Source: a virus. Taken from it: a stretch of 64,000 nucleotides of DNA. A model generated the notes under the pieces. The model saw only the letters and a list, made by a program, of their open reading frames with translations. It did not search any database and was not told the DNA's origin. The translations under genes and the position numbers were made by a program. How positions within the stretch are numbered: position 1 is the first letter of the stretch; the number at the start of each line of letters is the position of its first letter. Of this stretch, positions 32,440-58,780 are shown piece after piece. Location: positions 1 to 64,000 of the IMG/VR virus record IMGVR_UViG_3300036770_006627. One strand, written 5' to 3'.

Positions 32440-35400
32440 ATGCCAGACTCGATTCTCGGGCAAACGCCGCCGCAACACCGCGCATTTGGTGACATCCACG
32501 CGCTGCGTTCCGGCATTTTTGATCGCGCGCTCCAAAGCGCCAGCGCGATCGAGCCGATCAAAAACGATCTCTACACGCTCCAACTTTCGGACGTGAATTA
32601 CACGGGGCCGGAGCGCTACAACAAGCGCGATCAAAAACGGGCCGTTCTTACCGGAAACTCGTTGCACCGGCGGCTCACCGGCACTTGGAATTTAATCGAC
32701 AACGCCACCGGGCAGCCGATCGCCAAACGTCAGCAGACGATTGCGCACGTGCCGTACCTCACTGACTCGGGCACGTTTGTGAACCGGGGCGTCGAGTACA
32801 CCCTGGCCCACCAGATGCGGCTCAAGGCGGGCGTCTACACGCGCGAGAAAGACAACGGCGAGCTGGAGGCGCACGTTAACGTGCTGCCCGGCAAGGGACG
32901 CATGCACCGGTACTTCCTCGACCCGAAGACCGGCGTGATGAAAATTAACATTGGCCAGGCCCAGATTCCGCTGATGCCGCTGCTCAAAGCGCTCGGCGCC
33001 AAAGATGCCGATATCCGCGGCGCTTGGGGCAACGAGATCACCGCCGTCAACATGGAGAAGGGCGACGCGGGCACTCTCGACAAGCTCTACCAGCGACTTG
33101 TTTACAAGCAAACTCCGGGATTGGACGCGGCCGCTAAGCAGCAAGCTATTGCGACAGAGTTTGCCCGCATGGAACTCGACCCCGACGTTACGCGGCGCAC
33201 TCTTGGCAAGGAATACAAGAACCTTACCCCCGAAGCGATTCTCGACATTACGAAAAAGCTCATTGCCGTTAATCGCAAAGAGGCCGATCCAGACGACCGC
33301 GACGCAATGGCATATCAAAGCGTTGTCGGACCCGAGGACCTGATTGCTGAGCGCTTCAGTAAAGACAAGCAGGCGCTGCGCAAGTTGCTTTGGAAGGCCA
33401 CGGCGAAGAAAAATCTTGACCACGTGCCTACGGGGTTCTTCAACAAGGCGATCAATGCTGCGTTGATTGGCTCGGGCTTGGGCAGCTCGCTCGAAGAAAT
33501 TAACCCGGCCGAAATCTTCGACCACCAGAACCGCGTGACTCGTATGGGCGAGGGCGGCATCGGTTCGCTGGACGCAGTGCCGGTGGAATCCCGCGCCGTG
33601 CAGCCCAGCCACCTTGGCTACATCGATTTTCTGCGCACGCCGGAGTCGGGCAAAGCGGGCGTCGACATGCGCTTCGCGCGGGGCGCCGTCAAGGGTTCTG
33701 ACGGCAAGATCTATACGCCGGTGCGCAACATGCAGACCGGCGCGCAGGAATACAAGACGCCGGGCGAACTGGCCGACATGCCCGTGGCGTTTCCTGGCGA
33801 GGAGAAAACCGACCTGCCGATGGTCGCGGCTCTCGTGGGCGGCAAGATGAAGTACATGCCGCGGGAAGAGGTTCAATATTCTCTGCCGCACATGGACAGC
33901 ACCTTCTCGGCGCTCTCGAACATGCTGCCGCTCAAGAGCATGATTAAGGGCCAGCGCGCGATCATGGGCAGCCGCATGTTTACCCAAGCGCTGCCCTTGA
34001 ACGACGCAGAAGCGCCCTTCGTGCAGTCGGCTGTTGTCGACAAGGACGGCATCAGCCACGAAGACGAGATGGGCGAAAAGCTTGGCGCCGTGAAGGCCCA
34101 GTTCCACGGCCAGGTTGTTTCCGTGTCGCCCGACGAGATCGTGCTCCGCGATCGAGACGGTAACAAATCGACAGTCGATCTCTACAACGACATGCCGTTC
34201 AACCGCAAGACCTTTTGGCACCAGACGCCAGCTGTGCAGCCGGGCGACACGATTAAGCCCGGGCAGCTTTTGGCGCACTCGAACTTCACCGACAAGCAGG
34301 GCTCAGCTGCTTTGGGCAAGAACCTTCGCGTTGGCTACCTTCCTTTCAGGGGCAAGGTCTACGAAGATGCCGTGGTGATTTCGGAGTCGGCGGCCAAGAA
34401 GCTCACTAGCCAGCACATGTACCAGCACGAGGCTGAGTGGAGCGACAACACGCACGTTGGCAAGAAAGCTTTCGTGTCGCTCTTCCCCTCTGAGTACGAC
34501 AAGAAGACGCTGGCCCAGTTCGACGACAAGGGCGCTATTCAAAAGGGGACCGTAGTCAACTACGGCGACCCGCTGGTGCTGCAGGCTAAAGCCAAGGAAA
34601 CCACTTACGGCAAAGTTCACCGCGGACGCGCGGGCGCGTTCAGTAATGATACGATCACCTGGGATCATCACTCGCCGGGTATCGTCACTGACGTCGAGCA
34701 CACTGATAAGGGCGTGTCGGTCGTCGTGAAAAGCACCGCCGAGATGCAGGTGGGCGACAAGCTTACAGGGCGTTTTGGTGACAAAGGCGTTGTTGCCGAC
34801 ATCGTCCCGGACCACCAGATGCCGCACGACAAGGACGGCAGCCCGATGGAGGTTCTGGTTTCGCCGCTGGGGCTGATCTCTCGCGTAAATGCCTCTCAGG
34901 TTATCGAAGCTGCACTGGGTAAAGTCGCCGCGAAAACCGGACAGCCTTTCAAGATAAAGGACTTCGACAGCGAAAAAGACATCATTGCGTTTGCGCAGAA
35001 CGAGCTTGGGAAGCACGGCCTCTCCGACACTGAGGACGTCATTGATCCGGAGACCGGTCGTAAGATCAAAGGCGTGCTGACCGGCCACCGGTTCTTTATG
35101 AAACTTCACCACACGTCGGAGTCTAAGGGGCAGGGTCGCGCAATGGGCGCGTACACGGCAGAAGGAACTCCCGCTAAAGGCGGCTCGGAGGGCGCCAAGC
35201 GCGTTGGCATGCTGGACCTGGGCGCGCTTTTAAGCCACGGCGCCGGAAAGGTCATCCGTGACGCAAAGATGGTCCGCGGGCAGGCCAACCCCGAGTACTG
35301 GTCACAGTTCATGTCGGGCTATACGCCGCCGCTGCCCAAAGTGCCGCACGTTTATGAGAAATTTGTCAATCAATTGCGGGCCAGCGGCATTAACACTGTC

Positions 35401-36810
35401 CGCACCGGTACTAAAACGCACATCATGGCCATCGCCGACAAAGACGTCGATCAGCTGGCTGAAGATCGAGAAATCACCAGTTCTGAAACAGTGGACTGGA
35501 AAGGACGATTGAAGCCAGTTCCGGGCGGCCTATTCGACGAGAAATTAACCGGCGGACACGGCGGAAATCGTTGGGCAAAGATATCTTTGCACGAGCCGAT
35601 GCCCAATCCGGTTATGGAAGAGCCAATTCGTCGAGTTTTGGGACTTACCGAAAAGCAGTTTCGCTCTGTCTTGGCGGGCGAGACGCAGCTGTTCGACAAG
35701 TCGGGTCCTAGCGCGATTAAAGACGCGCTTGGCCGGATTAATCTTCCCAAGGCTATTGAACAGTGCCGAGAAGACATTAAGTCGGGCCGCAAAACGCTCC
35801 GCGACGCCGCCGTGCGCAAGCTCGGTTTTCTCAAGGCCGCCGAGAGCCAGGGAATTCATCCCCAGGAGTGGATGCTCACCAAGATGCCCGTCTTGCCGCC
35901 GTTGTTCCGGCCGGTCTCGACGATGGGCGCCAAGAAGCTCCCGCTCGTGGCTGACGCGAATTATCTGTACAAGGAGTTGATCGACTCAAACAGCGCGCTG
36001 AAGGACGCCTCCGGCGCCCTGGCGGAGTACGGCAACGAGCGCCTCGGCCTGTATGACGCGATGAAGGCGGTCTCTGGCCTGGGAGATCCGACGCAGCCCA
36101 AGAATCAGGAGCGGCAGGTCAAGGGATTCTTGAAGCACATTTTCGGCAGTTCGCCGAAGTACGGCACCGTTCAACGCAAACTTCTAGGCACCACGGTCGA
36201 CCTGGTGGGCCGCGCCGTAATCACGCCAAACCCGGACCTGGACATGGACGAGGTGGCGCTGCCCGAGGACAAAGCCTGGGAGGTCTACAAGCCGTTCGTG
36301 GTGCGCGGCTTGGTGCGGCGGGGGTTGCCGCGGATGCAGGCCCTCCAGCACGTCGAGGACCGCAACAAGGAGGCGCACGCGGAGCTGGAGCGGCAGATGT
36401 CGTCCCGGCCGATTGTAATCAACCGTGCGCCGGTGCTTCATCGATACGGTATGATGGCCTTCTACCCAAAGCTCACTAAGAACAAGGTGATGGAGGTCAA
36501 TCCGGTCATTACCAAGGGTTTTAACGCCGACTTCGACGGGGACGCGATGCAGTATCACGTTCCTAGCACGGACGACGCGGCAAAGGAAGCCGTCGAAAAG
36601 ATGCTTCCCTCAAAAAACTTGTTTGCGGCGGCTAACTTCAAAGCGCACTATATTCCGCAGGCTGAGTTTCAGTCCGGGATTTACCTGGCCAGCAGCCGGG
36701 TCGACAAACGCGCGAAGCCGCGGGTATATAAGTCACGGCAGGACGCCATTAAGGCCTATCGGCGAGGCGAGATTGAGGTCGATACCCCGGTGCATATAGT
36801 CGAGAGTTAA
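32440..36810 (+). CDS. RNA polymerase beta subunit fused to N-terminal part of beta-prime
   Basis: 1456 residues. The first ~960 follow bacterial RpoB: 'DSGTFVNRGVEYTL', 'RVTRMGEGGIG...VQPSHLGYIDFLRTPE' (fork-loop region), 'NLRVGYLPFRGKVYEDAVVISE', and GRFGDKGVV at 777-783 before 'LVSPLGLISRVNASQ'. From ~residue 1029 ('GGLFDEKLTGG') it is RpoC-like: 'MPVLPPLFRPV', 'KLLGTTVDLVGRAVI', 'NRAPVLHRYGMMAF' and the catalytic NADFDGD at 1362-1368 with all three Mg-binding Asp. It ends before the bridge helix, which is in the gene at 37789. Likely the catalytic core of a phage RNA polymerase. Confidence 0.93.
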   Translation: MPDSILGQTPPQHRAFGDIHALRSGIFDRALQSASAIEPIKNDLYTLQLSDVNYTGPERYNKRDQKRAVLTGNSLHRRLTGTWNLIDNATGQPIAKRQQTIAHVPYLTDSGTFVNRGVEYTLAHQMRLKAGVYTREKDNGELEAHVNVLPGKGRMHRYFLDPKTGVMKINIGQAQIPLMPLLKALGAKDADIRGAWGNEITAVNMEKGDAGTLDKLYQRLVYKQTPGLDAAAKQQAIATEFARMELDPDVTRRTLGKEYKNLTPEAILDITKKLIAVNRKEADPDDRDAMAYQSVVGPEDLIAERFSKDKQALRKLLWKATAKKNLDHVPTGFFNKAINAALIGSGLGSSLEEINPAEIFDHQNRVTRMGEGGIGSLDAVPVESRAVQPSHLGYIDFLRTPESGKAGVDMRFARGAVKGSDGKIYTPVRNMQTGAQEYKTPGELADMPVAFPGEEKTDLPMVAALVGGKMKYMPREEVQYSLPHMDSTFSALSNMLPLKSMIKGQRAIMGSRMFTQALPLNDAEAPFVQSAVVDKDGISHEDEMGEKLGAVKAQFHGQVVSVSPDEIVLRDRDGNKSTVDLYNDMPFNRKTFWHQTPAVQPGDTIKPGQLLAHSNFTDKQGSAALGKNLRVGYLPFRGKVYEDAVVISESAAKKLTSQHMYQHEAEWSDNTHVGKKAFVSLFPSEYDKKTLAQFDDKGAIQKGTVVNYGDPLVLQAKAKETTYGKVHRGRAGAFSNDTITWDHHSPGIVTDVEHTDKGVSVVVKSTAEMQVGDKLTGRFGDKGVVADIVPDHQMPHDKDGSPMEVLVSPLGLISRVNASQVIEAALGKVAAKTGQPFKIKDFDSEKDIIAFAQNELGKHGLSDTEDVIDPETGRKIKGVLTGHRFFMKLHHTSESKGQGRAMGAYTAEGTPAKGGSEGAKRVGMLDLGALLSHGAGKVIRDAKMVRGQANPEYWSQFMSGYTPPLPKVPHVYEKFVNQLRASGINTVRTGTKTHIMAIADKDVDQLAEDREITSSETVDWKGRLKPVPGGLFDEKLTGGHGGNRWAKISLHEPMPNPVMEEPIRRVLGLTEKQFRSVLAGETQLFDKSGPSAIKDALGRINLPKAIEQCREDIKSGRKTLRDAAVRKLGFLKAAESQGIHPQEWMLTKMPVLPPLFRPVSTMGAKKLPLVADANYLYKELIDSNSALKDASGALAEYGNERLGLYDAMKAVSGLGDPTQPKNQERQVKGFLKHIFGSSPKYGTVQRKLLGTTVDLVGRAVITPNPDLDMDEVALPEDKAWEVYKPFVVRGLVRRGLPRMQALQHVEDRNKEAHAELERQMSSRPIVINRAPVLHRYGMMAFYPKLTKNKVMEVNPVITKGFNADFDGDAMQYHVPSTDDAAKEAVEKMLPSKNLFAAANFKAHYIPQAEFQSGIYLASSRVDKRAKPRVYKSRQDAIKAYRRGEIEVDTPVHIVES
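35577..35588. repeat. GATATC palindrome, exact copy (AAAGATATCTTT), coding, other frame
   Basis: Part of the perfect 16-bp palindrome GCAAAGATATCTTTGC (35575-35590). It reads A-K-I-S-L, so not in the K-D-I-Y frame. Confidence 0.8.
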
Positions 36811-36823
36811 CACGGAGGTTCCC

Positions 36824-37558
36824 ATGAGTTTCACGGTCAATCCCGAGCTGCTAAAGATGGCTCGTCACGCGTTCGAGAAGTCCGCGGTCGTGCCGTCGGA
36901 TGCTGCCATGATGGCCGCTCAGGGCGCGCCTCCAATGGGCGGCGAAGCTCCCGACCCTTCGCAGCTGGGCGTTCAGGGCGCTGCGCAGCCCGTCGATCCT
37001 GCCACGGCCGCCATGGGCGCTGCGCCGATTGACCCCTCGCAGGATCCGACTGGCGCCGCAACAGCTGCCGCTCCTCCCGCGGCCGCTCCGGCCCCGATGC
37101 CGCCTGCCACGCCGCAGGGCGGAGTTCCTGGCCAGCAAAAACTCAAGCCCGAGCAGATGATGCAGATGCTTGACTATCGGCTCTATAACATGCAGCAGCA
37201 GCTAACGGCAATTATGAACGCGATGGGGGTCCAGGTTCCGCCCGAGTCGCTCGTTCTTCCGCCGGGCACAACCGGCGCGCCGCCTGCCGAGACGGCATTA
37301 CCTGGCGGCCCGATGGCCCCGCCGCCCCAGGACCCCAACGCGCCAGCTGGTCCGCAGCCCCCCGGCGGCCCGATGCCCCCGGGCGGGCCGATGGATCCGA
37401 GCCAGGCACCGATGGACCCGTCGGCCGGAAAAATGGCGCATTGGTGGGATAAACCGCTGGCCCAATTTGCCGAGCAGAACCCGGACGCGCCGACAGAGAC
37501 GCAGCTGAAGGCAGCGGCCGTGGCGGCGTTGTTCAGGAGCCTCGAGCGTGCGCGTTAA
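36824..37558 (+). CDS. Pro/Ala/Gly-rich protein inserted between the polymerase genes
   Basis: 244 residues, ATG 36824 with ACGGAGG upstream. 'HAFEKSAVVPSDAAMMA' opens a long Pro/Ala/Met/Gly low-complexity sequence; a short helix 'PEQMMQMLDYRLYNMQQQLTAIMNAMG' lies near residues 108-135 and a C-terminal helix 'ETQLKAAAVAALFRSLERAR' ends it. Probably disordered with short binding helices. Its place between two polymerase fragments suggests either a transcription accessory factor or a virion protein. Confidence 0.6.
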   Translation: MSFTVNPELLKMARHAFEKSAVVPSDAAMMAAQGAPPMGGEAPDPSQLGVQGAAQPVDPATAAMGAAPIDPSQDPTGAATAAAPPAAAPAPMPPATPQGGVPGQQKLKPEQMMQMLDYRLYNMQQQLTAIMNAMGVQVPPESLVLPPGTTGAPPAETALPGGPMAPPPQDPNAPAGPQPPGGPMPPGGPMDPSQAPMDPSAGKMAHWWDKPLAQFAEQNPDAPTETQLKAAAVAALFRSLERAR

Positions 37559-37787
37559 GCTGCAACACAACCTGCAGCCACACGAGCAGCGGGCGCACAG
37601 CGTCATCGTTGAAGATGACCTGGGAAACCCGATCTACGTGGCGCTGCAGCATGACGATCACATCATCTGCTCGCACGTTGGCGATGACGACTTTCATAAT
37701 CTTCTTCGCGTTCTCGGCGTTGATAAGACTGTAGTGGTCAACGACCTCACACCCAAGCCGATCGACAAGATGCTCTGGAAGCCGTGA
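37548..37787 (+). CDS. Small hypothetical protein inside the polymerase block
   Basis: 79 residues from GTG 37548 with CAGGAG upstream, overlapping the previous gene by 11 bases and ending one base before the next ATG. Mostly beta ('HSVIVEDDLGNPIYVALQHDDHIICSHVGDDDFHNLLRVLG'). No family recognised. Translational coupling to the beta-prime C-terminal gene suggests it may be a polymerase partner, for example in place of omega; this is speculation. Confidence 0.6.
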   Translation: MRVKLQHNLQPHEQRAHSVIVEDDLGNPIYVALQHDDHIICSHVGDDDFHNLLRVLGVDKTVVVNDLTPKPIDKMLWKP

Positions 37788-37788
37788 G

Positions 37789-39663
37789 ATGCTTAAAACC
37801 ACACTCGGCCAGATTCTCGTTAACGAAGCGCTGCCGGAAGATCTGCGCGACTACAACCGCGTCCTCACTAAGAAAGACATGGGTAATCTCGCGACGCAGC
37901 TCGCCGAAAAGCATCCCGACAAGTATCGGGAGGTCATGAAGAACCTTCACGACGTGGCCCGCGACACGTCTTATTCGGCGGGTGGTCTTTCGTTCGGGCT
38001 GAAGGACATCAAGCAGACCGTCGCCGCCAAGGAGGCGCAGCACAAAGTGCAGATGCAGCTCCGCGGCATTCTCGCCGACCGCGCGCTCGACGAGAAAACG
38101 CGTAACCTCAAGCTGCTCCAGCTCGCCTCGACCGCGCAAAAAGACCTCGTTGAAAAGGTCTACGAAGAAGCCAAGGCAACGGACAACCCGCTGGCTCACC
38201 AGGTCCACGGCGTTAGCCGCGGAAACAAGTTCAGCCTCAACTCACTTATCGGCGCAGACTTGCAGTACGTCGACCATAAAAACGAGCCTATTCCTATTCC
38301 CGTACTGCGCGGCTACGGCCAGGGTTTACGGCCCGTAGAGTATTTTGCGGGCGCCTTTGGCGCCCGCAAGGGCGTGCTCGACCTGAAGACGGCTACTGCG
38401 GACGCGGGTTTTTTCGGCAAGCAGCTCAGCCAAATGACGCATCGGCTGCTCGTCACCGCCGACGATGACGACGATCAGGAGCGCAATGCCACCGCGCACG
38501 ACCGCGGCTATCCCACTGACGTCGACGACATGGACAACGAAGGCGCGCTGCTCGCCCGACCCGTCGGACCATACAAGCGCAATACTGTTCTGACGCCGAA
38601 GATTTTGAAAGATATCAAAGGAATGGGCGTGCAGGATCTGCTGGTTCGCAGTCCGTTGGTCGGCGGCCCAGACGACGGCGGCGTGTACGCCAGAGACGTC
38701 GGCTATCGCGAGAAGGGCAAAATGCCGCCTATTGGCGACTACGTTGGCATCGCCGCAGCGCAAGCTCTGTCGGAACCAGTTACCCAAGCGCAGATCTCGT
38801 CTAAACATTCCGGCGGCGTCGGTGGCGCGAGCGCTATTGGCGGCTTCAAAGCGATCAACGCGTTGGTCCAGGTTCCCAAGAAATACCCCAATGGCGCCAC
38901 GCACGCCCAAGTTGACGGCCACGTCCAAGAGATCAAGGAGGCGCCCCAGGGCGGTTACTACGTCCAGGTCGGCGGCCAGGACCACTACATCCCGGTGGAC
39001 CGCGAGATCACCGTCAAAAAGGGCCAGGAGATCGAGGCAGGTGACTCGCTCACCGACGGCATGCCTAATCCGTCCGAAGTGGTGCGCCACAAGGGCATCG
39101 GCGAGGGCCGCCGGTATTTCGTTCAAGCCATGCGGCAGGTACTTCAAAACTCTAACGTCAACGGCCACCGCCGCAACATCGAGCTGCTCGCGCGCGGGCT
39201 GGTGAATCACGTCCGTATGACCGACGAGCATGGCGAATACAACCCAGACGACGTTGTGCCATATTCGATGATCGAGCGAAATTGGCAACCCCGCGCGGGC
39301 AGTGTGACAGGCGCGCCCAAGAGCCTGCAGGGCCATTATTTGGAGCGGCCCGTGTTGCACTATTCAATTGGCACGAAAATTGGCCGTAACGTCGTTAATA
39401 CGCTGCAAAAATACGGCATTAACAATATCGAGGCGCACAAGCAGCAGCCGCCTTTTCAGCCAGAAATGGTTCGCGGCATGGCGAATATTTCGAACGACCC
39501 GGACTGGATGACGCGTATGCTCGGCTCGTACCAAGAACGCGGCCTGCTTAGCAGCGTGCATCGGGGCGCAACTAGCGACACCGCGGGCAGCAGCTTTGTG
39601 CCAGGGCTGGCCCGCGGAGAAACCTTTGGAATGACTGGCGCAACGAGCGGATGGCGCCCATAA
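37789..39663 (+). CDS. RNA polymerase beta-prime, C-terminal part (bridge helix, trigger loop)
   Basis: 624 residues. The start 'TTLGQILVNEALPEDLRDYNRVLTKKDMGNL' matches RpoC just after the catalytic domain; 'RPVEYFAGAFGARKGVLDLKTATADAGFFGKQLSQMTHRLLV' is the bridge helix (~191-220) and 'VGIAAAQALSEPVTQAQISSKHSGG' the trigger loop (~319-343). The C-terminal third retains RpoC switch-like sequences ('KHKGIGEGRRYFVQAMRQVLQNSNVNGHRRNIELLARGLVNHVRMTD'). It completes the fused subunit upstream. I see no alpha, omega or sigma gene in the window. Confidence 0.92.
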   Translation: MLKTTLGQILVNEALPEDLRDYNRVLTKKDMGNLATQLAEKHPDKYREVMKNLHDVARDTSYSAGGLSFGLKDIKQTVAAKEAQHKVQMQLRGILADRALDEKTRNLKLLQLASTAQKDLVEKVYEEAKATDNPLAHQVHGVSRGNKFSLNSLIGADLQYVDHKNEPIPIPVLRGYGQGLRPVEYFAGAFGARKGVLDLKTATADAGFFGKQLSQMTHRLLVTADDDDDQERNATAHDRGYPTDVDDMDNEGALLARPVGPYKRNTVLTPKILKDIKGMGVQDLLVRSPLVGGPDDGGVYARDVGYREKGKMPPIGDYVGIAAAQALSEPVTQAQISSKHSGGVGGASAIGGFKAINALVQVPKKYPNGATHAQVDGHVQEIKEAPQGGYYVQVGGQDHYIPVDREITVKKGQEIEAGDSLTDGMPNPSEVVRHKGIGEGRRYFVQAMRQVLQNSNVNGHRRNIELLARGLVNHVRMTDEHGEYNPDDVVPYSMIERNWQPRAGSVTGAPKSLQGHYLERPVLHYSIGTKIGRNVVNTLQKYGINNIEAHKQQPPFQPEMVRGMANISNDPDWMTRMLGSYQERGLLSSVHRGATSDTAGSSFVPGLARGETFGMTGATSGWRP

Positions 39664-39746
39664 GCCCGATTCTGTAGGATGTAGAGGTCTCGGCGCGGTA
39701 AATCGCTATTTACACGCCCTGAAAATGCCGCACGGAGGTGGCCGCT
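39664..39746. other. Gap after the polymerase block
   Basis: 83 bases with GTAAAT-CGCT-ATTTAC (~39701-39716) as a small hairpin and then the SD-bearing hairpin at 39727-39742. No clear promoter. Confidence 0.4.
39727..39742 (+). promoter_or_regulatory. SD displayed in hairpin loop (gene at 39747)
   Basis: GCCGC/GTGGC stem (one G-U) around loop ACGGAG; GGAGG lies 8 bases before GTG 39747. One of four similar structures. Confidence 0.5.
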
Positions 39747-42122
39747 GTGTACAACCGCAAGAAGACTGAATCGTCCCAGGCGCACTGGCTGAACGTAGTA
39801 CGTTTGCACGACCGGACGCAAACGAAAGCCGCCGATTTTGGCGGCAAAGGCGACTCCACGTCGTTTGAGCAGGCGTTCAGTAACCTGGCGCACGCCTATC
39901 TGCGTGATTCAGCTCCGCGGCTGCTGGACCACGAAATCGGTTTTCAGCTGCTAGACCGCAATCGCGAAAACACCAAAGCTATTGGCGTTTTTGCGTTCAA
40001 AGTTGGCTCGAATTGGCTTTATGCTCCAGTCTTTTTTCTTAACGGCGACCTTAAAGGTCACGAACTCCTGTACATCAAAAACCAGGACATGTTCGTGCCG
40101 CTTAAAGAAAACTGGATTAACTACTTGGTGAACCGCAAGCCCAACATTTTGGGCAGCGCGGTGGACCGCAATCGGTCGTCAATGGGCCAGCGGCAGCCCG
40201 ATTTCACGCAGCTCTCTCGCAGTCCGGCGAAGTTTGGCTCGGCCAAGCCAACGCTGCGCGAGATGATGACGGCCGCGATGCCGACTTTTGCTAAGTGCGC
40301 CACGATGAACACGGCGCTGGTGTTTCAGGAAATCGGCCGGGCGTTAGATCTGCCGCGGTTTCTTAAAGAAGCCCGCGTCACGACGATCGACATGCTCGTC
40401 AAGACGTTCCAAGACGCCCCGGCGCTGGCCAAGGCATTTGATGAGTTTCACGGCCTGGGCGTGATCAAGGAAGCCATCGCGGCGGCCAAGGAACGCGAAA
40501 ATCGCCCGAAGATCGCCAGTGTGCTGTCGGAGGCACCTGAAAAGAGCCCGGCCGTCGCAGGGCTCAAGATCATCACGATGAACGTCACAATGCAGACCAA
40601 GCTTCCGCCGGAGACTACCGAGGAAGACCAGGAAAAGCTGCTCCGCGACGGCGTGCTGATTCTCGATCAGCGCGAGCGGGACAACGTGTCGATTCCCTAT
40701 CACATTCAGGTTGAAAAGAAACTTTGGAACCCGACCAGCTCGGGTCTTTACGACATCCTCGTCAAGCCGGGCAACATTGAGCGGGTTTACATCGCCATGT
40801 TCCCGATGGGGCCCGCGAAGCGTTCGGACTTTGTCACCGTCGTCCGTACCGAGGGCAAGCCTGAGTGGATTAACACGCGCGCAGACCAGGTGTTTTGTGT
40901 CGCCTGCCCGACCGACAAGGAAGAAGAAGAGTGGTTTAACGGCTTACCAGACGCAAACAGCCTTCCGTCGAGCGGGCGCTACATGTTGGTGCACAAGAAC
41001 GGCGACGCCACCGTTCCGGTTCGCGTGATCCGCGAGTACGGCGAGAGCGAATTCGGCGTGACGAGTTACGAGGTCCACATGGAGGACCATTCGAAGTTTC
41101 CGCCAAAGGGTCACATCTCCAGCTGCTGCTATACCGACCCGCTGAACTACGACAAGTGGCGCGACGGCGTCCGGATCCATCTCAACGGCAAGAAAGGTTC
41201 CAGTTTGCGCAGCTCGATGGGCGACATTTTTGTCCCCGAGGGCTACAAGCTGCTCAAGTGCGCTCCCGGCGAAGATGACGATGAGACGGCCGAGGACCAG
41301 GGCGCGTGCGGATGCGGCCAGAGCGAGATGCCGCCGCTGATGCCCGGCAACCTGGCTGACGCGCAGCTTGAACTGCTAGGCAAGACCGCCGCGCTCGAGG
41401 TCTACCACAACGGCACAGAAGTCACGATCAACAAAGAAGCCGCGCGCAGCCCGATTGCCGCGCTGGTGACGCTTGTTGAGCATCATGGTCTGCGTGAGGA
41501 CGCTGCTCGCGCGATCCTCAAGACAGCGGCGGCAAAAAAGAAGTTCGCTTGCCGCGTGAAGTATGCCAATCCGTACGGCGCGCCGATGATGGTCAATCAG
41601 GGCCCAACGGCGCCGACCGATCCGGGTCCGGTGATGGGCGGCGAAACAATCATGGGCGCCGACGTCCCAACTCAAATGGGCATAGATATTGGTATGCCGG
41701 TGTCGGACATGGCGGCCGCCAACACCGATCGGCAGATCTATAACCCGAACACGCGACTGGACAAAAAAGATATCCGCAGCGTGATGCAGGCCGCCGAGAC
41801 AGGCCAGAAAGAAGTGTTCGACACGGCGATGATCGGCTCGATGCTGCGCGCTGTCCGGGACGATTCGTTGGTCGATCGTTATATGGGCGAGCTGACCAAT
41901 GGCCTCGACAAGCTGGGCCGCATTTTGTTCATGTTCTATTGGCACGGTGATCGGTTCGCTGATCGTTATGGCAAATCTGATATGCCAGAGCTGGAAGATT
42001 CGTTGCGTAACGCCTTTGAAATGCTGGGCGACGTAATTCTCTTCCTCAAGCAAAAGACGATTGAGCCGTATCCAGAAGAAGGCGGCTCAGACACCGACCT
42101 CTCCAATGTCGCAAGCGCTTAA
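39747..42122 (+). CDS. Large hypothetical head-region protein
   Basis: 791 residues from GTG 39747, chosen because GGAGG is 8 bases upstream; the GTG at 39738 overlaps that SD. No domain recognised. Features: an N-terminal mixed region with 'HELLYIKNQDMFVPLKENWINYLVNRKPNILGSAVDRN', a Cys-rich 'ACGCGQSEMPP' near residue 524, 'LELLGKTAALEVY' and an aromatic C-terminus ('FMFYWHGDRFADRYGKSDMPELEDSLRNAFEMLGD'). It lies at the start of the head block, where portal or packaging proteins are often found, but the sequence shows no portal signature. Confidence 0.7.
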   Translation: MYNRKKTESSQAHWLNVVRLHDRTQTKAADFGGKGDSTSFEQAFSNLAHAYLRDSAPRLLDHEIGFQLLDRNRENTKAIGVFAFKVGSNWLYAPVFFLNGDLKGHELLYIKNQDMFVPLKENWINYLVNRKPNILGSAVDRNRSSMGQRQPDFTQLSRSPAKFGSAKPTLREMMTAAMPTFAKCATMNTALVFQEIGRALDLPRFLKEARVTTIDMLVKTFQDAPALAKAFDEFHGLGVIKEAIAAAKERENRPKIASVLSEAPEKSPAVAGLKIITMNVTMQTKLPPETTEEDQEKLLRDGVLILDQRERDNVSIPYHIQVEKKLWNPTSSGLYDILVKPGNIERVYIAMFPMGPAKRSDFVTVVRTEGKPEWINTRADQVFCVACPTDKEEEEWFNGLPDANSLPSSGRYMLVHKNGDATVPVRVIREYGESEFGVTSYEVHMEDHSKFPPKGHISSCCYTDPLNYDKWRDGVRIHLNGKKGSSLRSSMGDIFVPEGYKLLKCAPGEDDDETAEDQGACGCGQSEMPPLMPGNLADAQLELLGKTAALEVYHNGTEVTINKEAARSPIAALVTLVEHHGLREDAARAILKTAAAKKKFACRVKYANPYGAPMMVNQGPTAPTDPGPVMGGETIMGADVPTQMGIDIGMPVSDMAAANTDRQIYNPNTRLDKKDIRSVMQAAETGQKEVFDTAMIGSMLRAVRDDSLVDRYMGELTNGLDKLGRILFMFYWHGDRFADRYGKSDMPELEDSLRNAFEMLGDVILFLKQKTIEPYPEEGGSDTDLSNVASA

Positions 42123-45955: not shown

Positions 45956-47413
45956 ATGAGCATGATCAAGATCATCCAGCCGAACTCGCAGGATTTCAGC
46001 GAGCCGGTAGCGTCGCTAATTAAAATTTCCAGCCGCGGCCTACTGGGAGCCGACAAGGACGCTTTTGTGAAACGCGCGGGCGTGGATTTCGCCGAGCGCC
46101 TCAGCCGCATCAAGTTCGCGGCGGACGAGATCCCGGTCCACATGATCGCGATCGGCGCCACCGAAGATTACGGCCCAAACCGCAATGCCGACGGTTTCAC
46201 TCGCGACTGCTGCCGCAAGCACCACCACACGTTCGAGAAGTTTGCGCGTTTCTACCGCGACCATCTCAACAAGAACCCGGCCAAAAGCTACGGCGTTGTG
46301 AAGCTCGCTGCCTACAACGAGCCAATGCACCGGATCGAGCTGATCTGCGCGCTAAATGCCAGCAAGGAGGCTGCCGAGCGCAACGGCGGCCTGCTCGCCG
46401 ACAAAGAAACGGAGAAATTGGCTCGCGGCGACGATATCGGTGTTTCGATGGCCTGCAAGATTCCTTTCGACGTTTGCTCTGGCTGCGGAAACAAAGCTCG
46501 CACGCGCGCAGAGTATTGCGACTCTGTCGAGAATGGCGGCATGTGCAAGGCGGGCGGGCTGAAACACAACCTGGGGCGGGTTCTCGCTGACGGCCACATC
46601 CTTCACGCCGACAACCCCGATCCGACGTTCTTCGACATCAGCCACGTTTTCCGCCCCGCTGATCGCATTGCCTACATCTCTGGCACTCTGCAAAAGGCAG
46701 CCAGCGCTGGTGTGCTCTCAGGGGCCGAGTTGGCCGAACAGCTGGGCGTTACAGCGCCGCTGGGTTTCGATCGTGTTGCCACCAGCCTGCAGCTGCAAAG
46801 CCAACTCGCGGCACTTGAAAAACTGGCCGCGGCCGAGCGCGCGGTAATCCACGACCCCCGCGCCTGGACACAAGTTGCGCTGGCGTCGACGGCTAACGCG
46901 CAGCCGCCGGTCGACTTTGCGCCTTGCGAGAACGTGAAATTCGGGCAGGTCCTGCGCGCGCTAGCCGATGCGGGAGTGGTGCTCCCCGTCCGCGATTTCT
47001 TAACGCTTACTGTAAAAGCCGCGAGCGATAACCTGGTGCGCGCTGTGACTAGCGCGCTAGATAGCATTTTCAGTAAACTTGCAAACGACCCGGACACCGC
47101 GGGCGAGCTTGAAAACAACGCATTTCTTCCGGCTCCGGCCGCGGCAATGCCTGTCCAGGTCTGGGCTGAAAAGGTAGCTATGACGCACAGTGTACGACCG
47201 CAAGCCGTGGAAAAGCGCGCTTACCATAGCGCGCTTCGCGACGTGCAGGTTGCAGCTCTTGCCAAGGAGGCGGGCGATAATAAACCCGCGGCTTCGGCAC
47301 TTGCGCGGCAGTACGCTTTCTATAAGATTGCGGCTTACGCGACCCTCAGCGAGAAATATGGAAATTGCTGGTTGACAGCAAACCATTGTGTTCTGCAAAA
47401 TTACATCACTTGA
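45956..47413 (+). CDS. Putative prohead (head maturation) protease
   Basis: 485 residues. 'GATEDYGPNRNADGFTRDCCRKHHHTFEKFARFYRDHLNKNPAKSYGVVKLAAYNEPMHRIELICAL' and 'LARGDDIGVSMACKIPFDVCSGCG' match a phage prohead-protease-like family with conserved His and a Ser (GxSM). Cys pairs 'CSGCG...YC...MC' suggest an added zinc site. The C-terminal ~230 residues are helical. It lies upstream of scaffold-like and capsid genes, as expected. The catalytic assignment is by family resemblance. Confidence 0.65.
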   Translation: MSMIKIIQPNSQDFSEPVASLIKISSRGLLGADKDAFVKRAGVDFAERLSRIKFAADEIPVHMIAIGATEDYGPNRNADGFTRDCCRKHHHTFEKFARFYRDHLNKNPAKSYGVVKLAAYNEPMHRIELICALNASKEAAERNGGLLADKETEKLARGDDIGVSMACKIPFDVCSGCGNKARTRAEYCDSVENGGMCKAGGLKHNLGRVLADGHILHADNPDPTFFDISHVFRPADRIAYISGTLQKAASAGVLSGAELAEQLGVTAPLGFDRVATSLQLQSQLAALEKLAAAERAVIHDPRAWTQVALASTANAQPPVDFAPCENVKFGQVLRALADAGVVLPVRDFLTLTVKAASDNLVRAVTSALDSIFSKLANDPDTAGELENNAFLPAPAAAMPVQVWAEKVAMTHSVRPQAVEKRAYHSALRDVQVAALAKEAGDNKPAASALARQYAFYKIAAYATLSEKYGNCWLTANHCVLQNYIT

Positions 47414-49832: not shown

Positions 49833-50759
49833 ATGCCCACTCCGCAAGAAATCCAGCTGCTCAACGAGACGCTCTTCGAGCAGCTTGACACCCCCGGCAT
49901 GCAGAAGCAGGCCGTTGACGCTGTTAACGACTTCACGCGCACCAAGATGCGTGAAGACGGGTTCTACCGGCGGATTATGCCGCCGCTGACCATCACCAAC
50001 GACGAGCTTGACCGTCAGGTTGACACTGACAAGCCCGTCAAGGTGGTCGACAAGGAACCCGACTCCCCGGCGGCTGTGTCGCTCCCGTTCGCGACGCTCC
50101 CGATCAACTTCTACATCCGTGGCCCGCGATACCGCGTCATGTTTGACCGGATCGTGTCGCCCCGCGCTGTGAAGGACGTCGACGAGCTGCGTACCTACGT
50201 GATCGACATCCGTCAGGTCCTTTCCGACAACATGATCAAGGACATGCTGGCGGAAGAGGATTCCAAGTTCATCGCCGCGTTCAACGCCGTCCTCCCGACC
50301 CCGGGCGTGGCGAACGTTGCGTCCGGTGTCGTGCAGTACGAGGAAATCCACGGCGGCATCACGCGTGAGACGATTGTCGACGCGCTGAAGGTTATGCCGC
50401 GGACGCCCTCGCACTTCGAGGTCGAGACCTGCCTGGTGAACAACATCACCATCAAAGAGCTGCTGAAGTTCGGCCGCGACGAGATGGGCGGTGATTTCTC
50501 GCAGGACATCATCAAGAACGGTTGGGCGGAGACCAACTTCCTCAACTGCCGCTGGATCGTCACGATCAAGCGCGACCTTGTGCCGGACGACTCGATGTTC
50601 ATGTTCGCGTCGCCCAAGTTCATTGGCAAGAATTACGAGCTGGAGCCCACCACGATGTACATCCGTCGTGAGGCGTACATGCTCGAGTACTTCGCCTACA
50701 ACACGCAGGGCGGCTCGTTCGGTCACACGAACGGTCTCGCTCGCGTCGATTTCAAGTGA
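49833..50759 (+). CDS. Major capsid protein (HK97-fold type)
   Basis: 308 residues. The sequence follows phage major capsid proteins: an N-terminal helix ('EIQLLNETLFEQLDTPGMQKQAVDAVNDFTRTKMRED'), a long middle with 'RYRVMFDRIVSPRAVKDVDELRTYVIDIRQVLSDNMIKDMLAEED', and a C-terminal beta region ('MFMFASPKFIGKNYELEPTTMYIRREAYMLEYFAYN'). It is flanked by decoration and scaffold-like genes, preceded by a strong SD hairpin and followed by a terminator hairpin. The fold assignment is by overall pattern. Confidence 0.82.
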   Translation: MPTPQEIQLLNETLFEQLDTPGMQKQAVDAVNDFTRTKMREDGFYRRIMPPLTITNDELDRQVDTDKPVKVVDKEPDSPAAVSLPFATLPINFYIRGPRYRVMFDRIVSPRAVKDVDELRTYVIDIRQVLSDNMIKDMLAEEDSKFIAAFNAVLPTPGVANVASGVVQYEEIHGGITRETIVDALKVMPRTPSHFEVETCLVNNITIKELLKFGRDEMGGDFSQDIIKNGWAETNFLNCRWIVTIKRDLVPDDSMFMFASPKFIGKNYELEPTTMYIRREAYMLEYFAYNTQGGSFGHTNGLARVDFK

Positions 50760-55945: not shown

Positions 55946-58780
55946 ATGTCGAGCTACGTTAAACCACAAGTTCTCGTTTTCCAGGAATTCCAGATCATCC
56001 CGACGGAGATCACGGAGCCGCTGCGCGCTCATATCTCCGGCCCGCACGCGATGCTCCATCGCTACAACGACGCGGACGAAAAACGAGATTGCCGTCTGGG
56101 CGCGTACGACTATCTGAACGACGCCTGCTACGCATGGCCGCGTCGTTTGCCGGGTTCGAACGTCGACGAGTCGTACACCAAGCTGTACATCGACGACGCG
56201 TTGCTGCTCTTCTACGAGCACATGCTCGGCGACACGTCGACCACGATCACCGCGGTCAGCGGTCGCACGAACTGGATTCAGTCGAGCGACTTGGCGTTCA
56301 AGAGCAATGGCGTGGCCTATCCGCGCAGCTCGGTCTTCAACGATCGCGATGTTCAGCGCGGCGACGTGGTTTATCTTCGCGCAGTCGACAGCGAGAGCTG
56401 CGAGGAAAAGGAACTGTGGACAACTGTCACCGGTTTCGCCAGCGAGCTGGTCGCGTCGCAGATCGAAGAGGCCGCGGCTGATCAGGACAATCAGGATGCC
56501 GTTGGGTCGACGAGCGCTACGCTCACGAAGATCGCGGGGCCCGATAACTGCATCGTGGCCTCGGTCGACGCTTCTGAGTACGACGGCCTCGTCGATGGCG
56601 ACATCGAAGAAGAGTACACAATCGAGGTTATCAAGAGCTCAGTCGTTGGTTGCGCGGCTGCTCGGCTGCGCGTCCGCTCGGCGAGTGGCAACGACGACGT
56701 GGCTGAGGTTACGCCCGAAGACTGGGGCACGCCGACGGCGATCGGTACCCGCGGGCTTACGGTGACATTCGATTACGATCCGTCGAGCGCTTGCTCAGTG
56801 GCGGCGGACGACGATAACGTCGCGCCGGACGCGCTAGTGACCGGCCAGAAGTGGCGCGTAGTCGTGGAGCAGGAGTTCACCAAGGTCGAAGCGACCTCGG
56901 GCGGCGACGGCTACGACGGCGACAAGAACGACGTCTACATCGTCGAGTGCACCAAGGGCGGCCTGTTCGACGAGAGCAGCCCGACCGGTTTTCCCGAGAT
57001 CACCGTTCGCACTGTGAAGGGTCTCGACTATTCGGGCCCGACCGAAGTCGTTGATCACAACGTGGCGGTGGCTATCGGTTCGCACGGTGTGACGATCACT
57101 TTCCACGGTGCAGATGCCGGTGATCCGGTTCCTGGGCTGCGTAAGGGCGACAAGTGGTACATCAATGCGGAATCGAGCCAGGCCGGACCTGTTCGGCGGC
57201 TGATCCTTCGCGACGATCTTCCGCTTGAAATTGCGTCGGCTTCTGACATCGAGCTGCGGCTGTTCATCAAAGACAACATTCAGGTGTCTGAGAACCGCAT
57301 CGGTTTTGCGCCGTTGAAGAACTACGCGCAGGAAGCAACGCAGATCTGTGTGCACGAGGGCATCGTCGCCTACCATCCCGAATGGACCGATAACGGCGTT
57401 GAACAGCCGCTCGACGTTCGTGGCGGTACGCTTTACGTCGAGTACCGCGAGTGGCTTAGCGATCTGACCGACGAGGTCAACAGCGTGCAGAGCGTGGCCG
57501 AGCTGGACAAGATTGCGGGTCAGCTTCACCCGGACAACCCGCTGAAGTGGGGCGTCTACAAGGCGCTTTCCAACAGCAACGGAACCGTGGTGAAGTACAC
57601 AGCGGTTCTTGAGCCGACGGATCTTGATAGCTGGGTTCAGGTTCTTGAGCGCATCAAGGGCCGGGACGACATGTATAACCTCGTCCCGATGACGTTTGAC
57701 GTTCGCGTTCACAACCTGTACGCCGCGCATATCAACGGTGAGTCGAACGAGTACGCCAACAACTGGAAGGCTGGTTTCTTCGCCTTGCAGGCGGTGACCA
57801 GCAAGCTCCTGGTTGGCGAAGGCGCGGCAATCACCGGCGTGGCCGGACTCACAATGCCCGAGCCGGTGCTGGCGACCTTGAGCGACGATCCGAACGCCAC
57901 CAATACGCAGTACACGCTGCTGCAGGTGTCCGAGGGAAGCGGCTACTTCGTTACGAACGAAGTGCAGCCGGGCGACCTCGTACGTTACCTGTACACGGTG
58001 GACGGTTTCGGCGAGGAACAGTATCAGGAGTTCGTTGTAGACGCGGTGCTTTCTGAAAATTCGCTGCTGCTTTACTCGGGCGCCGACGCTCCTGTGTCTA
58101 TCGCGCAGCGGGTCGAGGTGCATCACAATCTCAACCGCAACGAGATCGCTGATGACATCGCAACGCGGGCCGGTGCGTTTTCGAACCGCCGCGTCGCCGC
58201 AGTGTGGCCGGACCAGGTGGGCGAAGCAGGCACGCTTATGGCGGGTTATTACCTCGCCGCGGCGCTCGCGGGTCTTGCGTCGGGCGTGGTCCCGCAGCAG
58301 GGACTCACGAACGTCGAGGTTGCCGGTTTCGACGATTTCACGCGTAGTTACAAGTACTTCAACGAAACGCAGCTGAATCGGATGGCCGAGGCAGGAGTGT
58401 GGATCGTGACGGAGGACCGTGACGGCACGCCGCACACGCGGCACGCGTTGACGACGGACAATCTCGACCTGAATCGTCGGGAAGAGATGATCCGCCGCAA
58501 CGTGGACTCGATTTCCTACCTGTTCCTCCGTCGGCTCCGTCCGTACATCGGCCGGACCAATGCGACTCCGTCGATGGTGCGCCAGCTGGATTACGAGGTC
58601 ACGAAGATCATCGACTTCTTCAAAACCAACGGTAATACCATTGAGCTGGGCTCGCAGCTGATCGACGGCACGATCCGCATTTTGCGGATTCATCCGCTGC
58701 TGCGCGATCGGATCGAGATCGTTCTCGACCTGGTTGTTCCGGCCCCGCTCAATAACATTGAGCTTCATTTGGTCGTCTGA
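55946..58780 (+). CDS. Contractile tail sheath protein with duplicated insert domain
   Basis: 944 residues, long for a sheath. The C-terminal half is diagnostic: 'RRVAAVWPDQVGEAGTLMAGYYLAAALAGLASGVVPQQGLTNVEVAGF', 'LNRMAEAGVWIVTEDRDGTPHTRHALTTDNLDLNRREEMIRRNVDSISYLFLRRLRPYIGR'. The N-terminal half carries two related beta domains (~224-330 and ~331-415; 'YTIEVIKSS...TRGLTVTFDYD...GQKWRV' and 'YIVECTKGG...SHGVTITFHGAD...GDKWYI'), probably exposed on the sheath surface. Sheath proteins contract to drive the tube through the envelope. Confidence 0.9.
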   Translation: MSSYVKPQVLVFQEFQIIPTEITEPLRAHISGPHAMLHRYNDADEKRDCRLGAYDYLNDACYAWPRRLPGSNVDESYTKLYIDDALLLFYEHMLGDTSTTITAVSGRTNWIQSSDLAFKSNGVAYPRSSVFNDRDVQRGDVVYLRAVDSESCEEKELWTTVTGFASELVASQIEEAAADQDNQDAVGSTSATLTKIAGPDNCIVASVDASEYDGLVDGDIEEEYTIEVIKSSVVGCAAARLRVRSASGNDDVAEVTPEDWGTPTAIGTRGLTVTFDYDPSSACSVAADDDNVAPDALVTGQKWRVVVEQEFTKVEATSGGDGYDGDKNDVYIVECTKGGLFDESSPTGFPEITVRTVKGLDYSGPTEVVDHNVAVAIGSHGVTITFHGADAGDPVPGLRKGDKWYINAESSQAGPVRRLILRDDLPLEIASASDIELRLFIKDNIQVSENRIGFAPLKNYAQEATQICVHEGIVAYHPEWTDNGVEQPLDVRGGTLYVEYREWLSDLTDEVNSVQSVAELDKIAGQLHPDNPLKWGVYKALSNSNGTVVKYTAVLEPTDLDSWVQVLERIKGRDDMYNLVPMTFDVRVHNLYAAHINGESNEYANNWKAGFFALQAVTSKLLVGEGAAITGVAGLTMPEPVLATLSDDPNATNTQYTLLQVSEGSGYFVTNEVQPGDLVRYLYTVDGFGEEQYQEFVVDAVLSENSLLLYSGADAPVSIAQRVEVHHNLNRNEIADDIATRAGAFSNRRVAAVWPDQVGEAGTLMAGYYLAAALAGLASGVVPQQGLTNVEVAGFDDFTRSYKYFNETQLNRMAEAGVWIVTEDRDGTPHTRHALTTDNLDLNRREEMIRRNVDSISYLFLRRLRPYIGRTNATPSMVRQLDYEVTKIIDFFKTNGNTIELGSQLIDGTIRILRIHPLLRDRIEIVLDLVVPAPLNNIELHLVV

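Follow-up and report, generated by a model that had tools for sequence, protein, structure and literature searches.

Two genes of a giant bacterial virus together probably encode the full catalytic core of a single RNA polymerase (RNAP) of bacterial type, as judged from comparing each chain singly: β is joined to the N-terminal part of β′, and the rest of β′ forms a chain of its own. To the extent that homologous genes report it, this two-chain arrangement is a lineage-wide trait of a group of such viruses, and we know of no cell that uses a fused-plus-split RNAP of this kind. The explanation we consider probable is a virion-packaged, α-free, bacterial-type holoenzyme whose transcription of phage genes would not depend on the host core. 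This analysis itself established gene structure, conservation, residues, gene order, and the co-occurrence of sigma. Virion content was measured only for the cultured relative Arash, and is read from the genes for the phage of the window (the whole 64,000-nucleotide stretch analyzed).

Composition of the two chains

The fused chain corresponds to RpoB followed by the N-terminal ~553 residues of RpoC, through and beyond NADFDGD, and the second chain to the remainder of RpoC. Pfam matches were Rpb2_6 (4.6e-49), Rpb1_2 (5.6e-26), Rpb1_1, Rpb2_3, and Rpb2_2 for the 1456-aa chain, and Rpb1_5 (3.5e-23) for the 624-aa chain. Sequence searches of the PDB matched the fused chain to bacterial β (1.7e-67) and its residues 1061–1453 to bacterial β′ (4.2e-51); the 624-aa chain matched β′ from Streptomyces RpoC 659 onward (5e-38). 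NCBIfam and Foldseek also related the fused chain to both RpoB and RpoC, and β′-C matched TIGR02386 rpoC (3e-57) and, by Foldseek, Thermus thermophilus β′ (2e-20). RpoB and RpoC models matched the phage chains at 1e-50 to 1e-107, and the bacterial proteins were alignable end to end with both chains. AlphaFold models of the single chains were of moderate confidence (pLDDT 62 and 70). The initial annotation had proposed a 1456-residue RpoB/RpoC-N fusion up to NADFDGD, with bridge helix and trigger loop in a separate 624-residue gene beyond two small genes. The coordinates, lengths, and order of the ORFs agree exactly (Table 1), and the strong PDB matches to bacterial β and β′ bear out its view that the enzyme is closer to bacterial than to phiKZ-type RNAPs.

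Table 1. Features of the polymerase locus and of neighboring virion genes (positions in the window)
Feature	Position	Strand	Details or basis
Fused RNAP chain	32440..36810	+	1456 aa; β ~residues 1-991, β′ N-terminal part ~992-1456
β double-psi barrel GDKLTGRFGDKG, catalytic K774 and K782	34753..34788	+	Alignment to E. coli β K1065/K1073
β′ catalytic NADFDGD, D1364/D1366/D1368	36523..36543	+	Alignment to E. coli β′ D460/D462/D464
244-aa Pro/Met/Gly-rich protein between RNAP genes	36824..37558	+	ORFs in gap of related loci
79-aa protein, ends 1 bp before β′-C	37548..37787	+	
β′-C chain with bridge helix and trigger loop	37789..39663	+	624 aa
Bridge helix, β′-C residues 193-217	38365..38439	+	AlphaFold2 helix and alignment to E. 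coli bridge helix
Trigger loop/helices, β′-C residues 317-361; conserved Q333, H340	38737..38871	+	
794-aa homologue of Arash gp218 (virion protein)	39738..42122	+	phmmer 7e-11
Homologue of Arash gp222 (virion protein)	45956..47413	+	phmmer 2e-31
Major capsid protein, by homology to Arash gp226	49833..50759	+	phmmer 9e-35
Tail sheath protein, Arash gp236 homologue	55946..58780	+	PHROG tail sheath 5e-8; phmmer 2.5e-42; Pfam Phage_sheath_1 weak

Alignment revealed that all catalytic residues checked are kept: β K1065, K1073, and R1106, and β′ R425, D460/462/464, T790, Q929, and H936 (E. coli numbering). Both double-psi barrels are present, and the two β lysines and three NADFDGD aspartates are invariant in all phages aligned. 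The break in β′ drops only ~E. coli β′ residues 554–567, a linker, and β′-C carries both the bridge helix and the trigger loop with its catalytic His (H340).

Other elements are lost or altered. Both β′ zinc sites are gone in the window phage enzyme, and the β′ N-terminal zinc ribbon is deleted in all lineage phages aligned, including Arash and D69. The bacterial C-terminal β′ segment is replaced in all phages aligned. The flap-tip helix (E. coli β 897–909), which in E. coli binds sigma region 4, is shortened in the window clade; therefore, sigma docking in this clade cannot be canonical. Rif-contact positions also differ (E. coli Q513 to S, D516 to E, and S531 to T), from which we predict that the phage enzyme is rifampicin-insensitive.

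By gene order and homology to Arash, the RNAP genes sit within a virion gene block, and they are among the genes common to the window phage and Arash, which are mostly virion genes. The position of the 244-aa gene is conserved across the window clade, and its product had no match in Pfam or PHROGs. The fast-evolving 79-aa gene has a counterpart at this position in most clade members. An ω-linked identity for it was rejected given the lack of any family match found, its rapid divergence, and its absence from Arash and D69. The sole strong upstream motif, AWAGATATCTWT, was likewise rejected as a phage promoter: it is a palindrome that is frequent inside genes too, and therefore not an ordinary promoter.

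Distribution and relatives of the arrangement

IMG/VR yielded 70 distinct full-length fused chains and 71 distinct β′-C chains, and no single ORF among the recovered homologues contained both parts. An identical fused chain was found in a 203.9-kb contig, and each of 14 genomes carried exactly one β′-C ORF. Salmonella phage Arash, a cultured relative, has the same layout, as do Vibrio phages D69, D181, and D148, in each case unremarked; the layout is conserved down to ~32% identity, the level between Arash gp206 and the window fused chain (phmmer 1e-231). The β/β′-N join and the break inside β′, for which artificial joining had been named as a danger, therefore stand as genuine. The arrangement is unusual as first described, but it is a lineage-wide trait common to cultured phages and not a one-off. 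A reading of the two genes as functionless pieces of a gene that has decayed or been misassembled could appeal to a break within a normally single gene and to frameshifts at a few loci (L182, L112). It is exceedingly improbable, being already refuted by 70+ distinct homologous chains from other contigs with identical architecture and invariant catalytic residues, and by virion peptides showing that both Arash chains are translated.

In cells, Helicobacter and Wolbachia have an RpoBC fusion, and cyanobacteria and plastids an RpoC1–RpoC2 split, one change each. Neither group is known to have both changes, and the cells keep α and ω. A cyanobacterial origin through a shared split was rejected: the RpoC1–RpoC2 break projects ~20–40 residues from the phage break, near but not identical, and β′-C matches actinobacterial RpoC (134 bits) better than cyanobacterial RpoC2 (72 bits). 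Recent capture from a host was also rejected, as the best cellular matches listed were only 24–28% identical and spread across many phyla, and trees set the phages apart. In a tree without archaea and without named mReC sequences, the phage chains stood apart from all sampled bacteria with support of 1.0.

The closest arrangement is that of Arash (gp206, gp216, and gp10), D69, D181, and D148, which share the fused chain (1525–1527 aa), the separate β′-C (606–609 aa), the sigma family, and the virion gene block. Unlike the window phage, Arash and D69 keep the second β′ zinc site and have neither the 244-aa nor the 79-aa gene; in Arash, nine small genes separate the gene of the fused chain from that of β′-C. 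RNAPs of Cobetia phage Carin-5, Vibrio phage Va2, and Rhizobium phage RHph_Y65 group with the fused lineage in the β′ tree. Their bacterial-like β′ is uninterrupted and retains its zinc sites, and Carin-5 encodes β as a separate chain. The mReC phage RNAPs, likewise bacterial-like and from metagenomes, are reported to branch apart from all cells, but were described as β and β′ subunits with fusion or split unreported (Weinheimer and Aylward 2020, PMC7481178). A profile of the unsplit phage β′, used to search for mReC-type relatives, recovered only 4 loci. The mReC capsid family PF07068 was found in 0/8 window-lineage genomes, but PF07068 controls were equally silent; the mReC terminase family PF03237 matched 1/8, below cut-off only. 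Most mReC contigs are likewise without a detected capsid gene.

Like phiKZ/AR9-type RNAPs, the window enzyme has β′ broken after the catalytic barrel, no α or ω, an accompanying SNF2-type helicase, and, as we infer here, virion packaging (PMC7598289, PMC7824862). However, phiKZ/AR9-type phages have two RNAP sets, each built from four to five chains of very divergent sequence, with β split and no sigma (PMC7598289, PMC7824862), whereas the window lineage has one set of two chains, with β unsplit and fused, and a sigma in every genome tested. The crAss-like phage RNAP is also phage-encoded with β and β′ parts on one chain (PMC7481178). It is too divergent for the RpoB and RpoC models that match the window chains. 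In crAss-like and YonO RNAPs all catalytic parts lie on one chain, whereas in the window phage a second chain carries the bridge helix and trigger loop.

Absent subunits and a sigma factor

That α and ω are missing, as noted initially, was upheld by profile searches: α (PF01193) was found in 0/14 genomes and in neither of two cultured phages (Arash and D69), and ω (PF01192) in 0/10 genomes, with controls positive in 13/14 and 14/14. The accompanying claim that sigma is absent holds within the window only; a divergent sigma70-family gene is encoded 6.8 kb past its end (G000:C1:70829-71638). This family was present in 15/15 genomes tested; of 50,697 phage records, four contained it, the same four that have the fused RNAP. 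Its profile aligns to SigA over regions 2–4 in order (E 1.6e-15). Pfam Sigma70_r3 was above cut-off in the window phage's own sigma and matched 10/10 members at E<=0.1; the region 4 match was weak, and region 2 was matched singly in only 1/10 members. These data suggest that the factor pairs with the fused core. It could work with the host core instead, which counts against the holoenzyme explanation.

Proposed role

Gp206, the fused chain, is the most detected Arash virion protein with 128 unique peptides, and Gp216 (β′-C), Gp217 (SNF2-type helicase), Gp218, and Gp10 (sigma) gave 40, 38, 36, and 24, respectively, in a preparation with 116 proteins listed; primase, ligase, and two other helicases gave 2 each (PMC10585845). 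Per residue, the unique-peptide density of both RNAP chains, sigma, and helicase matches or comes close to the capsid protein's, and is 15–50 times lower for primase and other likely carry-over enzymes. A homologue of the helicase was not found in D69 or in lineage genome G015. Because both chains and sigma are abundant in the Arash particle, these phages probably arrive in the host with a transcription machine of their own. Packaging would extend to the window phage by its shared genes. This role was absent from the initial annotation.

Structurally, β would run directly into the N-terminal half of β′ (clamp, lid/rudder, and Mg-binding barrel), and the second chain (secondary-channel rim, bridge helix, and trigger loop) would have to dock on the fused chain, completing the active site. 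The cellular α dimer holds β and β′ together; here, the covalent joint may take over part of its task, which fits the absence of α and ω and suggests a core that assembles without α. Promoter specificity would come from the sigma70-family factor, whose gene lies in another part of the virion gene block. The particle would contain core and sigma, and probably the SNF2-type helicase, and deliver them into the cell along with the DNA; there the enzyme may transcribe at least the early phage genes with no need for the host core. We lean only slightly towards the fully self-contained form, in which the two-chain core with its own sigma, and probably the remodeller, would start transcription without any host RNAP subunit.

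An alternative we regard as unlikely is that the enzyme is non-virion, becomes abundant late, transcribes the late (virion) genes together with its sigma, and reaches virion preparations only by carry-over. The Arash authors themselves raised co-purification of abundant non-virion proteins (PMC10585845), and the location of RNAP and sigma genes in the virion gene block is as expected for late co-expression. Each genome also has only one RNAP set, which may therefore have to serve late genes too. However, Gp206 tops the Arash detection, and the dense coverage extends equally to sigma and helicase, whereas primase, ligase, and the two other helicases are barely represented. Still less credible is a hybrid in which the phage chains recruit host α, ω, or sigma as a modified host-type polymerase. 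The end-to-end alignment with bacterial sequences and the lack of phage-encoded α or ω speak for it; the replaced C-terminal β′ segment, the fused joint that lessens the need for an α scaffold, and the constant presence of a dedicated sigma speak against it, and phiKZ-type cores are active without α (PMC7598289).

Were the enzyme packaged together with its sigma, no virion RNAP known to us would precede it in having a sigma70-type factor. An α scaffold underlies the assembly of cellular RNAPs, and phiKZ-type enzymes have raised the question of how a multisubunit core manages without one. As the present enzyme is alignable residue by residue with bacterial RNAP, yet consists of two chains, lacks the zinc ribbon, α, and ω, and comes with a sigma, it offers a simple test of the scaffold's purpose, and the cultured member Arash makes the virion-RNAP idea directly testable. 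In the Arash publication the two chains are called simply 'beta' and 'beta prime', and their fused and split layout goes unremarked (PMC10585845). That such phage polymerases carry annotations of 'beta' or 'hypothetical' is accounted for in part by subunit rearrangement.

Subunit layout and its recurrence

The initial annotation had proposed that RpoB (beta) is fused to the N-terminal part of RpoC (beta'-N), with a break inside beta'. This layout was borne out by two ORFs of 1456 and 624 aa, the second encoding the remainder of RpoC (beta'-C). As only ~14 linker residues are absent between them in E. coli beta' numbering, the two chains constitute a complete core. The C-terminus of the fused chain is ordinary and carries no intein half. 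The beta/beta' joint is placed within some tens of residues, since concatenated E. coli subunits served as the alignment reference.

Coordinates of the features discussed (positions in the window unless a genome or locus is named)
Feature	Location	Length	Remark
Fused chain	32440-36810	1456 aa	RpoB, then RpoC to ~E. coli beta' residue 553
Small gene	36824-37558
Small gene	37548-37787
beta'-C chain	37789-39663	624 aa	begins ~E. coli beta' residue 568
Sigma70-family protein	G000:C1:70829-71638	270 aa	6.8 kb beyond the window, in the same virus record
In-frame inteins, fused chain	L023, L024, L025, L029, L038, L109, L134		loci of relatives
In-frame inteins, beta'-C	L009/L124, L122, L134, L138		loci of relatives
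Palindrome sites	5419, 7369, 10103, 11795, 16318, 17486, 24912, 27731, 35577, 42436, 43848, 52933, 53947, 63333	12 bp

The window covers the beginning of a virus record of 86.7 kb in IMG/VR, and one end of a 203.9-kb contig (sister genome G001, L033) is identical to it wherever sampled. Contigs of ~200-230 kb were common among loci with this RNAP, and these phages are therefore jumbo-sized. A search of viral contigs revealed 45 loci with the fused chain, and profile searches added more. Among the distinct full-length sequences (70 fused chains and 71 beta'-C chains), no ORF held both parts together. Recurrence of the same arrangement across these chains ruled out an assembly artefact, and neither misassembly nor a frameshift accounts for the joined genes. 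The fused chain with a separate beta'-C is close to certain.

At three loci the fused chain was spread over two ORFs. In L121 (L121:341-7161) these lie 1.9 kb apart, the first ending with a 98-aa intein N-part and the second beginning with a 41-aa C-part, which looks like a natural split intein. The divided chain of L112 adjoins an intein, and that of L182 is due to a frameshift. In-frame inteins occupied several RNAP sites, including the trigger loop interior; in L134, the fused chain contained three inserts and beta'-C contained two. In most of the clade the two small genes are likewise located between the RNAP genes; Arash and D69 lack both.

Cultured relatives, conserved residues and phylogeny

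The fused chain was present at >80% coverage in 4 of 50,697 phage records (Salmonella phage Arash and Vibrio phages D69, D181, and D148; ~32% identity). Fusion and break in Arash gp206 (1525 aa) and gp216 (606 aa) are identical in kind to those of the window phage, as are those of the D69 homologues. These proteins are labeled 'subunit beta' or 'hypothetical', and the consulted text of the Arash description mentions neither fusion nor split (PMC10585845). Unannotated 'Staphylococcus/Enterococcus/Listeria phage' entries of this collection (OR844998, OR846602, OR848788, and others) contain rpoBC of the ordinary bacterial type and appear to be host contaminants.

Alignment of the phage chains with E. 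coli revealed invariant catalytic residues. Every aligned member of the lineage has a deletion of the beta' N-terminal zinc ribbon. Arash and D69 retain the second beta' zinc site, whereas the window clade has lost all four of its Cys. The trigger loop retains its His, with M932, R933, and F935 replaced, and the C-terminal segment of bacterial beta' is likewise replaced. The beta flap-tip helix, which binds sigma region 4 in E. coli, is eight residues shorter in the window clade and less shortened in Arash. AlphaFold models were made of single chains. By Foldseek, the fused-chain model (residues 285-1456; pLDDT 62) matched bacterial beta (3e-44), the best beta-side matches covering ~700 columns, and the beta'-C model (pLDDT 70) matched bacterial beta' (2e-20).

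FastTree phylogenies for beta and beta', covering phages and sampled bacteria, separated the lineage from all of these bacteria (support 1.0), with Arash and D69 forming the sister group of the window clade. The phage enzymes of Carin-5, Va2, and RHph_Y65, which have an unbroken beta', grouped nearby; as they sit on long branches, long-branch attraction is possible. These data fit a scenario in which the fusion, break, and zinc-ribbon loss arose no later than the ancestor shared by Arash and the window clade, with the second zinc site lost later.

Sigma factor and probable virion packaging

The initial annotation had seen no alpha, omega, or sigma in the window; for sigma, this holds within the window only. 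Neither alpha nor omega was found in the genomes searched, where positive controls were detected in 13/14 and 14/14 genomes, but a sigma is encoded past the window. With the region-2 Pfam model, the metagenomic phages gave no sigma match; a weak but consistent region-4 match pointed to the 270-aa candidate. Its Sigma70_r3 match is above cut-off, the family profile aligns with SigA over regions 2-4 (1.6e-15), and NCBIfam and PHROGs agree with the assignment. The family occurred in 15/15 genomes with this RNAP and, within the phage collection, only in the four fused-RNAP records, including Arash gp10. Arash gp196 (L203:2657-3694) is a second sigma70-family gene, with region 2 above the Pfam cut-off.

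In the published Arash virion LC-MS data (PMC10585845), Gp206 ranked first (3516 spectra, 128 unique peptides), and Gp216 (1210, 40), Gp10 (467, 24), and the SNF2-type helicase Gp217 (1148, 38) were also detected. The virion protein list there includes gp10 but not gp196. Because spectrum counts were noisy, with two-unique-peptide proteins still reaching about one spectrum per residue, only unique-peptide density was relied on. Computed per 100 aa, this was 8.4 (Gp206), 6.6 (Gp216), 10.3 (Gp10), and 8.1 (Gp217). The capsid protein reached 9.8, and likely carry-over enzymes 0.2-0.7. A virion holoenzyme is likely for Arash.

Homologues of 17 G001 genes were present in Arash or D69, and most of these genes encode virion functions (portal, capsid, sheath, terminase, and other virion proteins); the remainder include RNAP, sigma, the SNF2-type helicase, and a possible DNA polymerase. 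The RNAP genes also lie among virion genes in the window. From Arash virion content, the shared virion genes, and this placement, we infer that the window phage packages its RNAP; homology and gene order make a virion holoenzyme plausible here. In one relative (G014:C1:134705-136141), the SNF2-type helicase is part of an open frame of 2984 aa that may encode a large multidomain protein.

phiKZ-type RNAPs have a break after the catalytic barrel, lack alpha and omega, and are virion-packaged (PMC7598289, PMC7824862). The present lineage shares these features, packaging being the inferred one for the window phage, but differs in chain number, divergence, and its sigma, which phiKZ-type enzymes lack. 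The nearest described group is the mReC enzymes (PMC7481178), for which a deep tree position has been claimed. A search limited to the open literature returned no published description of this subunit layout.

A palindromic repeat

The 12-bp palindromic repeat A[AT]A-GATATC-T[AT]T occurred at 14 sites in the window versus 0.31 expected, and at about 46-50 sites in the 203.9-kb sister genome. Sites lie ~4 kb apart, both within and between genes, and repeated occurrence of the motif was seen only in the closest relatives. The motif is perhaps a binding site of a phage DNA-organising or segregation protein.
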